The notes below the pieces were generated by a model, which searched no databases, was not told the origin of the DNA, and saw nothing but the letters and a program-made list of their open reading frames with translations. Below, piece after piece: positions 25,131-29,788 of a stretch of DNA of 64,000 nt. The position numbers were made by a program, and so were the translations under genes. The stretch is from the NCBI RefSeq assembly GCF_020832045.1, contig NZ_JAFIFK010000031.1:1-64000 (forward strand), given 5' to 3'. How positions within the stretch are numbered: position 1 is the stretch's first letter; every line of letters starts with the position of its first letter. The stretch comes from Halomonas sp. Its GTDB lineage: Bacteria > Pseudomonadota > Gammaproteobacteria > Pseudomonadales > Halomonadaceae.

Positions 25131-25907
25131 ATGACGACCTCCCACCCCCATATCGCGCTCCCCCCTTTGATCGCTCACCGCGGACTCTCCGCTCATGCCC
25201 CAGAGAACACGCTCGCGGCAGTCAAAGCGGCGCACGAGGCGGGTTTCCAGTGGGTGGAGCTCGATGTACAGCTACTCGGTGACGGCACCCCGGTGATCTG
25301 GCACGACGCAACCCTTAAACGCTGCTCCGATGGCCATGGCCGCCTGGCCACGCTGGACCTCGCCATGGTGCGCAAGTTGGATGTCGGAGCCTGGTTCGGC
25401 GACGGCTTTCGCGGCGAGCGCATGGCCACCCTGAGCGAGATGCTCGATTTGTTGGTGTCATTGGAGATGGGCGTCAACATGGAGCTGAAGGTGAGCAGCC
25501 GGCGCAGCGGCACCGAGCTGGCCGAGGCCGTGATACCCCGCCTGCTCGAGGCATTGCCGGCCGAACGGCTGATCGTCTCCTCCTTCGACCAACCCGCCCT
25601 GCGCCAGGCGCGTGCCATTGCCGACGCTTCACTTCTGCCTATCGGGGTGCTCAGCGAGAGCGTGCCGAACAAATGGCAGTCCCGCTGCGAAGCGCTCGAT
25701 GCCTACAGCATTCACACTGACTGGACGCGGCTCACCGCTCGGCGTGCCCGGGAGATCAAGGCAGCGGGCTATCGTTTGCTGTGCTATACCCCCAACGATC
25801 CGGCAGCCTTTGCCAGCCGGTGGTCATGGGGGGTGGACAGCGCCATCAGCGACGATCCCGGCCTGTACGCTGACATTGCGCCGCCGCCAACCACGGCCGT
25901 GCGCTAG
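25131..25907 (+). CDS. ugpQ: Glycerophosphodiester phosphodiesterase
   Basis: A 258-residue TIM-barrel enzyme without a signal peptide, so the cytoplasmic UgpQ type. It hydrolyses glycerophosphodiesters to glycerol-3-phosphate and an alcohol. The catalytic set is present: IAHRGLSAHAPENTLAA (HR...ENT), WVELDVQLLGDGTPVIWHDATLKR (ELD and HD), and VNMELKVS. The C-terminus has CYTPNDPAAFASRWSWGVDSAISDDPGLY. Its stop overlaps the convergent glutaminase stop by a few bases. Its product would feed the glpD-encoded step found at 53.8 kb. Confidence 0.93.
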   Translation: MTTSHPHIALPPLIAHRGLSAHAPENTLAAVKAAHEAGFQWVELDVQLLGDGTPVIWHDATLKRCSDGHGRLATLDLAMVRKLDVGAWFGDGFRGERMATLSEMLDLLVSLEMGVNMELKVSSRRSGTELAEAVIPRLLEALPAERLIVSSFDQPALRQARAIADASLLPIGVLSESVPNKWQSRCEALDAYSIHTDWTRLTARRAREIKAAGYRLLCYTPNDPAAFASRWSWGVDSAISDDPGLYADIAPPPTTAVR

Positions 25908-26836
25908 GCAAAGGCACCCAAATGCCATTGACGGGAGAGTCGCTTCAGCATACGCAGCCCGGCAACGCTGTTGCCATGGTCGTTGAGCGCCGGGCCTATC
26001 ACGCCAATGCCCATGCGACCGGGCACGGCGGAGAGTATGGCACCGGATACGCCGCTCTTCGAGGGCACGCCCACCTCAACGGCAAACCGCCCGGACTGGT
26101 CGTACATGCCGGTAGTGAACATCAGTGTCAGCACGATGCGCACCGTCTCCTCGCCGATCAGCCGCTCCCCGCTTTTCGGGTCTCGCCCACGATTGGCCAG
26201 CACCGCGGCTATCCGCGCCAGGTCACGACAGTCCAACTCGATAGAAGTCTGCTTGAGGTAGGGCACGAGCAGATCTTCCTCGCTGCCTGCGTAAACGTCG
26301 TGGCTACGCATGTAGTAGAAGAGCGCGCGGTTCAAGTCCTGGTCTTCGGCTTCGAACATGGCTTGGTCATAATCGAGAGACGGGTTGCCAGCGAGACGCC
26401 GAAAGAAATCACGCAGCCGGGTAAACCGCTCGTCGCCATCGCGCCCCTTGATCATAGCCGTGGTGACGATGGCACCGGCGTTGATCATGGGATTGGATGG
26501 AACGCCCATTTCGCCCTCTTCGAGGGTGGCAATGGAGTGATAAGGATCGCCTGAGGGCTCCATCCCGACCCGTTCGAACAGTGCCTCGGCGCCCACGTCT
26601 TCAAGCGCCAGTGCCAAGGTCAGCGCCTTGGAAACACTCTCAAGCGGGAAACGCTGGTCGGTATTGCCGGCCTGGGCATTACTCCCCTCGGCTCCCATGA
26701 CGGCGATACCGACCAGTTCCTGATCCTTTTCACCCTCTTCCGTGAATGACGGCATCTCACTTTCGTGGCGATTCTCATTTTCCTCTGTCACGATCTCGTT
26801 CAAAACCCTGGCTTGCGCTTCATCGATGCATTCCAT
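25904..26836 (-). CDS. glsA: Glutaminase (serine-dependent GlsA type)
   Basis: A 310-residue cytoplasmic enzyme that hydrolyses L-glutamine to glutamate and ammonia. The beta-lactamase-like fold motif SxxK is seen in FPLESVSKALTLALALE. Further signatures are GEMGVPSNPMINAGAIVTTAMI, YMRSHDVYAG, a Tyr in TGMYDQSGRFAVEVGVPSKSGVSGAI and VPGRMGIGVIGPALNDHGNSVAG. The first 40 residues are Glu-rich and differ from E. coli glutaminases. ATG 26836 is preceded by AGGAAAGGTGGG. It is divergent from the PncC-NadE gene, whose NAD synthetase half uses ammonia. Confidence 0.93.
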   Translation of the reverse strand: MECIDEAQARVLNEIVTEENENRHESEMPSFTEEGEKDQELVGIAVMGAEGSNAQAGNTDQRFPLESVSKALTLALALEDVGAEALFERVGMEPSGDPYHSIATLEEGEMGVPSNPMINAGAIVTTAMIKGRDGDERFTRLRDFFRRLAGNPSLDYDQAMFEAEDQDLNRALFYYMRSHDVYAGSEEDLLVPYLKQTSIELDCRDLARIAAVLANRGRDPKSGERLIGEETVRIVLTLMFTTGMYDQSGRFAVEVGVPSKSGVSGAILSAVPGRMGIGVIGPALNDHGNSVAGLRMLKRLSRQWHLGAFA

Positions 26837-26955
26837 TGGCAGAGCCCACCTTTCCTGGTGTATTCCGACTTTCCAACTCGCCCCATGCGGCCCTTTTGGC
26901 CTAGGGTTAGAGTGGACCTGTCCATTAGGCTAGTCGGCCCTCAGGAGATGGAGCA

Positions 26956-28296
26956 ATGGAACTGCTGAATCGTATTACTGACTATTTGATCGACAACGAA
27001 CTCAAGCTGGCCACCGCCGAGTCGTGTACTGCCGGGCTGATCGTTTCCGAACTGGCGCGGGTGCCGGGCAGCGGCCAGAGCATCGACTGTGGCCTGGGCG
27101 TCTATTCGCCTCAGTCCAAGAACCGTTACCTCGGCGTCAGTTTCGATACCATAGAGCGCTGCGGGCTGACCAGCGAAGCCGTGGCCATCGAGATGGCCGC
27201 AGGCGCGCTGAACAACAACGATGCCGACGTGGCCCTGGCCAATACCGGCATTGCCGGCCCCAACCCCGGCGATGACGATACCCCCATCGGCACGGTCTGC
27301 TTCGCCTGGGCATTCCGCCACAACGGCGATCACCATCATTATTGCGAAACCCGCCGCTTCGACGGCGAGCGCAACGAAGTCCGCCTGGCTGCGGCCCACT
27401 ACGCACTGGAACGCCTGCCCCATTACCACGAGCTGTGCCTCGCCAGTGACACGGTGAGTGCGGAGGAGACACGCTCACGTCAAGCCATACAGCGCGCTAT
27501 CGGCGTGCAGCTGCAGGCTCGCAGAGGAATCGACGCCCAGCATGAGATAGGCCGGCGGCGCGACTTCCTGTGCAAGATCATGCAGGAGAGCGGACAGACG
27601 ACGCTGGTGCTGGGGATCAGCGGCGGCGTCGACTCAACGGTGGCGGGGCGTCTGGCACAGCTTGCGGTGGAGAAAAGGCGCGAAGAGGGCGAGAAAGCTC
27701 ACTTCGTTGCCATGCGTCTGCCCTACGGCGAGCAGCAGGATGCCGATGATGCCGACAAAGCGCTGGCCTTCATCCAGCCTGACGAGGTCCTCGACGTGAA
27801 CATCAAAAGCGCCAGCGATGCGATACTGGAGTCGCTGGAAAGCGGCGGCATGGGCTTCGAGGATATACATCAGCGCGACTTCGTGCTTGGCAACATCAAG
27901 GCACGCCAGCGCATGATCGCTCAATATGCCATAGCCGGAGCCCGCGGCGGCTTGGTCATCGGTACCGACCAGGCCGCCGAGGCGCTGATGGGATTTTTCA
28001 CCAAGTATGGTGACGGAGCCTGCGACGTCGCTCCCCTAACCGGCCTGACCAAAGGCCAGGTGCGTCTGCTCGGACAATATCTCGGCGCACCGAGCTTATT
28101 GGTGAATAAGGCGCCCACCGCCGACCTCGAGTCGATAGCACCGCAGAAGCTCGACGAAGTGGCCCTCGGCGTCAGCTACGAGGAGATCGATGACTTCCTC
28201 GAGAACCGGGACGTTTCCGAGCAGGCTTTCGAGACCATCGTCACCACCTATCGTCGTACCGAGCACAAGCGGCAGCTGCCCATCGGCCCGGACTGA
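26956..28296 (+). CDS. nadE: Fused NMN deamidase (PncC) and NAD synthetase (NadE)
   Basis: A 446-residue two-domain protein. Residues 1 to about 160 are a CinA C-terminal/PncC domain: TAESCTAGLI with Ser23, GVYSPQSKNRYLGV, ANTGIAGPNPGDDDTPIGTVCFAW. This domain turns NMN into NaMN and releases ammonia. Residues about 180-446 are an ammonia-dependent NAD synthetase: the ATP pyrophosphatase loop SGGVDST (222-228), MRLPYGEQQDADDADKALAF, GNIKARQRM, GTDQAAEALMGFFTKYGDGACD, PTADLE (387-392) and HKRQLPI. Both domains look complete. Position 339 is Gln where GTDHAAEA is usual. ATG 26956 follows AGGAGATGGAG. No amidotransferase domain is fused, so it needs free ammonia. Confidence 0.93.
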   Translation: MELLNRITDYLIDNELKLATAESCTAGLIVSELARVPGSGQSIDCGLGVYSPQSKNRYLGVSFDTIERCGLTSEAVAIEMAAGALNNNDADVALANTGIAGPNPGDDDTPIGTVCFAWAFRHNGDHHHYCETRRFDGERNEVRLAAAHYALERLPHYHELCLASDTVSAEETRSRQAIQRAIGVQLQARRGIDAQHEIGRRRDFLCKIMQESGQTTLVLGISGGVDSTVAGRLAQLAVEKRREEGEKAHFVAMRLPYGEQQDADDADKALAFIQPDEVLDVNIKSASDAILESLESGGMGFEDIHQRDFVLGNIKARQRMIAQYAIAGARGGLVIGTDQAAEALMGFFTKYGDGACDVAPLTGLTKGQVRLLGQYLGAPSLLVNKAPTADLESIAPQKLDEVALGVSYEEIDDFLENRDVSEQAFETIVTTYRRTEHKRQLPIGPD

Positions 28297-28366: not shown

Positions 28367-29788
28367 TCAGCGTGTGGCGGGGTCGGGCCGTGCGGTCTCC
28401 CCATCGTCGCGTTCCACCACCATGTCGTCCTCCACTGCGATGGGCTCCTGCTCCTCCGCCTCGCGGGCACTCCGGGCACGATGCTCGATCAGGAAGTAGA
28501 GAATCAAGCCGATACCCAGGCCCCAGGCTGCGCCATGGGTGGCCAGCACCACGCCCATGATCCCCGCCACACCCATGGCGGTGGCATTCTTGATCTGCTC
28601 TACTGCCACGGCGATGCACAGGTAGCCGGTGATCAGTAGCGTGATCGACAGCGCAATGGGCAGCACCGGACGAAAGAAAGTCACCAATGGCAGCAGGAAC
28701 AGGGCAAAGAAGCCGACGATCCAGAACACCCCGGTACCGGAATAGATGGTATCCATGGCCTTGCGACCATAGCGGTAGCGCTCGGTCACGGTGGCCATGC
28801 CCCCAGTGAACAGCGGCCCGGCCAGCCCCGGATAGGGGGCCAACAGCGAGTGCATCAGGTTACGGATACCGGTGATCAAATGCACCCGGTCGATGTTCAC
28901 CTCGATCTTCTCGTCCGGCCGCAGGTGGTCGACGCGCTTGAGCAATGTCTGGCCCACCACGATGTCACCGAAGGCGATGATGTAGGCAATGATCGCGGTG
29001 GGGATCGCCGCCACCATCAGCTCAATACCCGGCGCTCCGATGGAGAACGGCAGGTAGGCCCAGATACCGGCGAAGTCGGGCACGGCAATGCCCCACTCCA
29101 CCGTGGGCATCGAATACTCGCCGACACCCCAGCCAATCGCCATGGTGATCAGCATGCCCGGCACCATACCGAAGGCGACGATATTGCGCGCCCAGCGATA
29201 CTTCTCGGCCAGATCGCGAAAGGAGAGCGAGAACAGCACGTAGAGGGTGATGAGCCCGCCGATACCCAGTGAGATCGGCGTGTTGTATAGCCGACCGCCC
29301 TCGACGATCTCCCCGCTTATCGCCGCAATACCCGCACCCAGCAGAATCCCTGCCTTGATCGATGCCGGCACGTTGTTGACCAGCTTGCTGCCGAGCCGCG
29401 TAACGGCCATGAACAGGAAGATCGCCGTGACCATCAGCTGCAACGCCACCATGGCGCGCATCGCCTCGGGTCCCGGCTCGAACTGGCCAATGAACAGCAA
29501 TACCACGGGTATCGCCGGAGTGATCCAGCCGGCGATGAAGGGTACGCCCAGCAGCGGCGGCAGGATGAAGCCGATGCCGCACACCACCACGAAGGCCAGG
29601 CCGACCTCGTAGGGCACGCCCAGATACTGCTCCAGCAGCGGGATCATGCCCAGGGAGATGACGAACATCACCATCGCCTGGATGGTCTCGGGAATGGCCC
29701 ACTGGAAATGGATGAAAGGCAGGCGGACCTTGAACGGTCCCAGTGGCCAGTAGGGATGTTCCTGGCCGTATTCACGTTTGAGCAGCAC
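28367..29788 (-). CDS. SLC23-like (nucleobase/anion) membrane permease
   Basis: A 473-residue polytopic membrane protein with about 11-13 hydrophobic helices. It has the amphipathic-half-repeat look of the SLC4/23/26 (UraA-like) fold: AIPETIQAMVMFVISLGMIPLL, AIISGEIVE-like and AYIIAFGDIVVGQTLLKRV segments, then LAPYPGLAGPLFTGGMATVTERYRYGRKAMDTIYSGTG. The C-terminal 40 residues are strongly acidic and soluble. The start is GTG 29788 with GAGGTG six bases upstream. The long upstream gap carries two GntR-like palindromes. I cannot name the substrate, and the family call itself is moderate. Confidence 0.6.
   Translation of the reverse strand: MLLKREYGQEHPYWPLGPFKVRLPFIHFQWAIPETIQAMVMFVISLGMIPLLEQYLGVPYEVGLAFVVVCGIGFILPPLLGVPFIAGWITPAIPVVLLFIGQFEPGPEAMRAMVALQLMVTAIFLFMAVTRLGSKLVNNVPASIKAGILLGAGIAAISGEIVEGGRLYNTPISLGIGGLITLYVLFSLSFRDLAEKYRWARNIVAFGMVPGMLITMAIGWGVGEYSMPTVEWGIAVPDFAGIWAYLPFSIGAPGIELMVAAIPTAIIAYIIAFGDIVVGQTLLKRVDHLRPDEKIEVNIDRVHLITGIRNLMHSLLAPYPGLAGPLFTGGMATVTERYRYGRKAMDTIYSGTGVFWIVGFFALFLLPLVTFFRPVLPIALSITLLITGYLCIAVAVEQIKNATAMGVAGIMGVVLATHGAAWGLGIGLILYFLIEHRARSAREAEEQEPIAVEDDMVVERDDGETARPDPATR

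Follow-up and report, generated by a model that had tools for sequence, protein, structure and literature searches.

Why would a single Halomonas gene encode both a CinA/PncC-type amidohydrolase and an NAD synthetase? The window analyzed here (64,000 nucleotides, positions 1 to 64,000 of Halomonas sp. contig NZ_JAFIFK010000031.1) contains a reading frame at 26956..28296 on the plus strand, as are all of the parts of it described below, that runs for 446 codons with no internal stop and whose ATG is preceded, 8 nucleotides away, by a Shine-Dalgarno-like AGGAG (26943..26947). A first-pass annotation of this DNA had taken the frame for PncC fused to NadE, two enzymes of one NMN-to-NAD route, and its translation and its Pfam and NCBIfam matches bear out the presence of both domains; the motifs on which that annotation relied (TAESCTAGL, NTGIAGP, SGGVDS, PTADLE and HKRQLP) are all where it placed them.

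Domain structure of the fusion protein

Residues 3–155 (26962..27420) match Pfam CinA (model positions 4–152 of 155, E = 2.6e-41, 141.3 bits with a cut-off of 23.5) and pass the NCBIfam PncC_domain model TIGR00199 (110.5 bits, cut-off 68.9). Residues 200–442 (27553..28281) match Pfam NAD_synthase (model positions 4–242 of 242, E = 9.5e-64) and pass the NCBIfam NH3-type NAD(+) synthase model NF001979 (364 bits, cut-off 250), so the domain search that the annotation had proposed finds both domains nearly full-length. These two are the only Pfam domains in the protein; there is no nitrilase (glutaminase-like) domain by Pfam or NCBIfam, nor any N-terminal MocF/COG1058 domain in the Pfam search. 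In theory such a frame could be a chance one or a product of sequencing or assembly error, but both are ruled out by full-length fusions in named species, with identities of up to 90% across 100% of the length (the nearest are in Billgrantia and Halomonas). Both domains are present in 49 of the best 120 matches listed, and 45 of these cover at least 99% of the query. The union of a complete CinA/PncC domain and a complete NH3-dependent NadE domain in one frame is thus real. The named homologues among the matches listed are annotated solely as NAD synthetase or synthase, and some public entries comprise the NadE half alone of such a frame (e.g., P0003, 446 aa, and P0050, 287 aa, Halomonas sp. 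LR3S48).

An AlphaFold2 model of the monomer (pLDDT 88.9, with a middling pTM of 0.64) predicts the expected fold for each half; in Foldseek comparisons it matches the CinA protein AtCinA (2a9s) with a TM score of 0.84 and the Bacillus subtilis NAD synthetase (1nsy) with one of 0.92, both by target length. In the model the last helix of the PncC domain, the linker and the first helix of the NadE domain merge into one predicted continuous helix, residues 139–185 (27370..27510), that bridges the domains. The placing of the two domains relative to each other in this monomer model is tentative.

The PncC half is complete, as the first-pass annotation had said, but it is not a canonical PncC; it belongs to a divergent subfamily, distinct from the canonical PncC encoded next to recA, which we call "PncC2".

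PncC2 and NadE in the Halomonadaceae

We searched 275 genomes of the family with the fusion protein (scoring at most six candidates per genome); 87 matched at E ≤ 1e-25, and 83 loci were fetched, 81 of which have a PncC-type or NadE match. PncC2 is counted at this threshold in 70 of the 275 genomes, and in 67 of the 70 it occurs with an NH3-type NadE. The two are fused in 20 genomes (17 of the window's genus, its own genome included, and 3 of genus g67), adjacent on the same strand in 46 (of which G266, G295 and G310 have an interrupted NadE frame) and present as a frameshifted pair in one, G032 (locus L041); three genomes (G037, G226 and G213) have PncC2 without an adjacent NadE. Matches of 37–40% in G188 and G201 were judged canonical-like and left out of the PncC2 count. 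Type N (NH3-dependent) NadE without PncC2 beside it is found in 17 genomes of the family (10 from fetched loci and 7 from the match table); G213, whose PncC2 and NadE are on different contigs, is counted in both groups, and the NadE of G219 is partial. As a control, none of 31 canonical PncC loci has a NadE within flanks of about 1.5 kb.

The PncC2-NadE pair sits in three different gene neighborhoods, and a number of the unfused neighbors share a frame and are separated by a stop codon. Frames of 473–530 aa in G240, G248, G293, G315, G186, G171, G228, G229 and G270 were considered as fusions with long linkers and rejected, since each has a stop after its PncC2 part and so represents adjacent genes. 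In G037 PncC2 is intact (L034) and the NadE half is gone save for a short C-terminal remnant (L127), through fission or decay of a fusion; this loss and the frameshift in G032 indicate that the unit is dispensable. The NadE or PncC2-NadE frames of L041, L093, L103 and L107 (in G032, G295, G266 and G310, respectively, each assembled in few contigs) are interrupted, which may reflect genuine decay or errors in sequencing.

Relatives outside the family and probable repeated fusion

The survey of its spread suggested by the first-pass annotation finds the fusion to be rare: full-length matches occur in 2 of 398 genomes of a phylum-wide sample (the window's own and G284), and type N NadE without PncC2 is common in that sample. 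Within the same order, G092, G368, G500 and G607 of family f21 have both genes apart, and G661 of that family has them next to each other. PncC2 is thus a partner of NadE in some lineages and not of type N NadE generally. A wider contig scan took the best 80 of 347 PncC2 relatives, many from the same species as the family set; 14 of these 80 are fused to NadE, 43 are adjacent to it, 1 has a NadE remnant, 1 has NadE on the opposite strand and 21 have no NadE within 4 kb. Outside the family, adjacent pairs are found in Aliidiomarina, Salinisphaera, "Proteobacteria bacterium 005FR1" and Caballeronia/Burkholderia, and fused genes in Marinobacter denitrificans, a gammaproteobacterial MAG and Caballeronia arvi (a 3.5 kb contig from one genome).

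On a tree of 61 pairs the fused rows require two changes of state, and a single fused clade is rejected (AU test, p = 2e-103). Adding 21 rows (13 loci from the best 80 of 347 and 8 proteins, with L181, whose NadE is on the opposite strand, and the loci without NadE excluded) gives an 82-row tree with five state changes, at least four of which are forced by well-supported branches. Loci with interrupted frames (L041, L093, L103, L107), no NadE (L034, L108, L112) or no SGG match (L068, L106) were left out of both trees, and the first 36 residues of L116 were set to X. The metagenomic fusions P0054 and P0055 lie on long branches that meet, and so are not counted as two events. The state changes may be gains or losses. 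Since the fused groups are embedded in a largely unfused background, the more economical interpretation is that the fusion was gained repeatedly, and the fusion of PncC2 to NadE likely arose more than once.

Among 16 fusions of the window's genus (L116, with its out-of-frame N-terminus, was excluded) the median dN/dS is 0.077 for PncC2 (116 of 120 pairs usable), 0.167 for NadE (120 of 120) and 0.33 for the linker (93 of 120). Purifying selection acts on both domains; the PncC half has the lower value and is therefore the more constrained of the two, and a decaying PncC domain is ruled out. The relatively fast evolution of the linker would fit an explanation in which co-transcribed neighbors simply lost the intervening stop and each domain goes on working by itself, the fusion being a neutral by-product. 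Adjacency eases fusion, and the unfused relatives are neighboring genes, a number of them in frame with each other. We nevertheless think this explanation unlikely, since the stop was probably lost repeatedly and the fused state has been held in 17 genomes of the window's genus and 3 of g67, and since the pair has stayed together in three different gene neighborhoods.

Active site of PncC2

We compared 70 PncC2 proteins (20 fused and 50 unfused) with 31 canonical PncCs (the genome's own copy and those of 30 fetched loci); two of the original 72 PncC2 rows were dropped, L039 (no NadE, and part of its AGP block missing) and L056 (canonical-like and near recA). According to the alignment with AtCinA 2a9s, the fusion protein has the whole set of NMN-site residues: Ser23 (27022..27024), the predicted nucleophile, Lys55 (27118..27120), the predicted general base, Tyr50 (27103..27105) and Arg139 (27370..27372), which correspond to phosphate contacts, and Thr97. 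Across the subfamily these positions (in AtCinA numbering) are nearly invariant, with K63, Y58 and T105 in 70 of 70 proteins and R145 and S31 in 69 of 70; the one protein without S31 is L116, which has an out-of-frame N-terminus. In AtCinA the S31A, K63A, Y58A and R145A mutants were reported to be inactive, T105A to lose 94% of its efficiency and S48A to retain full kcat (PMC5384747); kcat/Km values given for NMN with known PncC enzymes range from 2.1 to 362.5 per mM per s (PMC5384747 among the sources).

Other positions, in blocks lining the NMN pocket, have changed in a fixed manner. PncC2 has A for G34 (69/70), G for S48 (70/70) and P for N60 (70/70), positions at which all 31 canonical PncCs have G, S and N. 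Unlike single-domain PncCs such as AtCinA and E. coli YgaD, which have the same predicted fold and with which it shares the AtCinA Ser/Lys/Tyr/Arg/Thr set, the fusion protein has TAG for TGG, GSG for GSS, YSP (in YSPQSK) for YxN (in YxNxxK), GLTS for GAVS and TPIG for KPVG. The genome's own canonical PncC differs from it in the last two of these blocks, and the published blocks GSS, YxNxxK, GAVS and KPVG of active enzymes are all unmatched. The consensus of active enzymes as given in PMC3855486 lacks the PncC2 set of changes, and in the account there of the inactive E. coli protein YdeJ, N60D is one of the two changes held responsible. The YdeJ pattern as a whole (Y58F, N60D, and loss of R145 and of the G46/S48 block) is absent from the fusion protein, which keeps Tyr50, Arg139 and Gly38 and has P rather than D at the N60 position. 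In our alignment the E. coli chain 5kol (ECK1530), which we take to be YdeJ, has F and C at the places of the Tyr and the Arg.

With its catalytic residues kept and its pocket blocks changed, PncC2 is predicted to be an active amidohydrolase, for which NMN is the likeliest candidate substrate; the literature searched, in the parts that were available, yielded no assay of a member of this subfamily. A rival explanation, to which we give a substantial minority chance, is that PncC2 is active on something else, either another amide whose ammonia feeds NadE or a different pyridine compound. This would account for the retention of the Ser/Lys dyad under strong selection alongside departures from canonical PncC at G34, S48 and N60 and in the blocks GAVS and KPVG, for the 21 PncC2 loci above (of the best 80 of 347) without a nearby NadE, and for the fusion of a PncC2-type domain to a MobA/MocA-like NTP transferase in P0122. 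It is less easily reconciled with the survival of all of the mutagenesis-tested NMN contacts save the side chain of S48, whose removal from AtCinA left kcat intact, or with the pairing with an NAD enzyme, which points to a pyridine nucleotide. NMN stays the preferred candidate.

P0122 is one of a group of proteins of 382–385 aa (P0122–P0127) in which a CinA domain is fused to a MobA/MocA-like NTP transferase (PF12804); its CinA part, with the TAG/GSG/YSP signature, is C-terminal to the nucleotidyltransferase. L039 and L167–L196 (from Pseudomonas, Cupriavidus, Caballeronia and others) have the PncC2 signature, many of them with no NadE within 4 kb, and in many the AGP block is altered (NTGVAD, TTGLCG); functions may therefore differ among members of the subfamily. 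Seven Caballeronia/Burkholderia PncC2-NadE pairs likewise have VAD in place of AGP.

The NadE half and Gln339

The NadE half is of type N, as shown by its NF001979 match, an SGGxDS ATP-binding P-loop (SGGVDS, residues 222–227, 27619..27636, aligned with solved NadE structures) and the absence of a nitrilase domain. Its nearest solved chains by Foldseek are NAD synthetases, with up to 54% identity (53–54% over the domain for type N enzymes such as B. subtilis 1nsy and B. pseudomallei 3dpi, with the signature motifs aligned); the Francisella tularensis NMN synthetase 3fiu ranks 42nd, with 36% identity. The fusion differs from these type N enzymes in having an amidohydrolase partner and Gln in place of His at residue 339 (27970..27972), where the five solved NadE chains in our structural alignment all have His. 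The first-pass annotation had remarked on this Gln as a further oddity of the fusion, and it is indeed a Gln where His is usual, but it is not specific to fused proteins: across 82 PncC2-NadE pairs, both fused and unfused, the equivalent residue is Q in 68 and H in 14, so Gln339 is a clade trait. All 10 fetched NadE loci without PncC2 have H at this position, as do the paired NadEs of Caballeronia, 005FR1, g53, g64 and P0054.

Other NAD metabolism genes in the genome

The same genome encodes a canonical PncC of 170 aa directly upstream of recA (which was recognized by eye), a glutamine-dependent NadE of 573 aa (NF010588, 760.9 bits, cut-off 479; amidase-family match at 46–259, synthetase at 305–548), a NadM-Nudix protein (NF003786, 555.5 bits, cut-off 397), NadD and an NAD-dependent DNA ligase (LigA). 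No enzyme of the NAPRTase family (PncB or NadV) was found in it, so a supply of NMN through nicotinamide salvage is rejected for this genome; in the family NAMPT_N is present in 3 of the 275 genomes, none of them among the 87 that match the fusion query. NMN can form by DNA ligation, and would have three predicted exits: canonical PncC, the fusion and NadM directly. Canonical PncC, the glutamine-dependent NadE and NadM-Nudix provide other routes, which makes the fusion accessory. In G044 (a single contig, 99% complete, with an intact fusion) the canonical PncC gene by recA matches residues 83–170 only, leaving a remnant (L226:1726-1989) without the N-terminal half that carries the catalytic Ser and Lys; this one case hints that the fused domain can stand in for canonical PncC.

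The placing of both domains on one NMN-to-NAD route, proposed from the letters of the sequence, fits what is found here: the families agree, the catalytic residues are kept, and NadD and an NMN-releasing DNA ligase are present. Of the wider interpretation offered at that stage the shared route stands, with the conserved pairing of the two in its favor, ammonia channelling is a candidate idea, and Gln339 proves not to be peculiar to the fusion.

Proposed function

In the scheme that we favor, which we regard as about evenly balanced between right and wrong, the protein would be a bifunctional enzyme combining NMN deamidation with NaAD amidation, a two-step, nitrogen-neutral NMN recycler. NMN released by the NAD-dependent DNA ligase would be turned by the PncC2 half into NaMN and NH3; NaMN would leave and be adenylated to NaAD by the separate NadD, and the NadE half would then convert NaAD, NH3 and ATP to NAD. 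We infer the activity of both halves, NMN as the substrate and the nitrogen balance. Because NaMN must leave for NadD the pyridine would not be channelled; direct transfer of ammonia between the two sites is possible, as a candidate mechanism only. The amide lost at the start is the amide needed at the end, so NMN would be recycled without a cost in glutamine or a net loss of ammonia. With a glutamine-type NadE, each NMN passing through this loop would cost one glutamine and set free one ammonia, where the NH3-type would be nitrogen-neutral. The known reactions imply this balance, which would be the reason for the pairing of PncC2 with NadE.

A bolder and rather doubtful extension would make PncC2 the missing, non-orthologous ammonia source within a third class of NAD synthetase: an amidotransferase, built repeatedly from an operon pair, that draws its amide from spent NMN instead of glutamine and passes the ammonia to NaAD within the one enzyme. 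In the opposite direction, PncC2 might have no turnover at all and serve as a sensor or scaffold, binding NMN (or NaMN) and regulating or stabilizing NadE. NadE is dimeric. Given that the CinA active site is described as made from two subunits (PMC3855486), the fusion could tie two dimers together, and the predicted bridging helix is continuous. We consider this very improbable, since the catalytic Ser and Lys are kept almost without exception and a pure binder would not need both.

Relationship to known systems

Type F (glutamine-dependent) NAD synthetases resemble the fusion in having an amide-hydrolyzing domain N-terminal to the synthetase, the order in the genome's own copy (PMC3376133 gives the reverse order for type F, but the domain matches in this genome put the amidase first). 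They differ from it in that the amidase of the fusion is of the CinA/PncC type and not a nitrilase, and that its synthetase is of the NH3-dependent branch (NF001979). The COG1058-PncC proteins (Shewanella oneidensis PncC, Thermus thermophilus CinA) likewise join PncC to a second NAD-recycling enzyme (PMC3680494, PMC4246079), but there an ADP-ribose pyrophosphatase domain is N-terminal to PncC, whereas in the fusion PncC comes first in the chain and is joined to NadE. NadM-Nudix, of which this genome has a copy, also carries two NAD-recycling activities per chain, with different enzymes and steps. PncC joined to COG1058 and NadM joined to Nudix are already on record (PMC3680494), and none of the titles and abstract openings in the literature listings searched describes a PncC-NadE fusion or operon.

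The source of ammonia for single-domain NAD synthetases is an old question. A 2012 survey of more than 800 genomes reported that genome context revealed no non-orthologous glutaminase that might partner type N NadE, and favored free ammonia (PMC3376133). In nearly all of the Halomonadaceae genomes counted with PncC2 an amidohydrolase is fused to or beside such a synthetase, and PncC2 is next to NadE in Aliidiomarina, Salinisphaera and Caballeronia loci also, so that in this lineage the question is directly testable on one protein. Through the fusion, the nitrogen given up by a used NAD fragment would become available for completing a new NAD, and the analysis defines a PncC subfamily recognizable by a clear signature.

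Neighboring genes and variation at the locus

A glutaminase A gene (25904-26836, minus strand) lies divergently 119 bp upstream of the fusion, with a phosphodiesterase gene on its other side, and was considered as a conserved partner and ammonia source. Among 13 fused loci (L042–L054) it is intact in one (L047), a remnant or fragment in one (L052) and not found in 11, and it is present in 2 (L034 and L041) of 10 other loci, of which L039, L040, L055 and L056 have no PncC2-NadE unit. As it occurs in so few related loci it is rejected as a conserved partner; its presence here represents a recent insertion or repeated loss elsewhere. Downstream, a hydrophobic-looking protein of 473 aa (28367-29788, minus strand) has no Pfam or NCBIfam match; it is not found in most of the 23 loci L034–L056, and is 90–97% identical in the 7 that have it. 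Two Vreelandella aquamarina records differ, P0042 being fused and L156 having PncC2 and NadE separate, so either names or the fusion state vary within this group.
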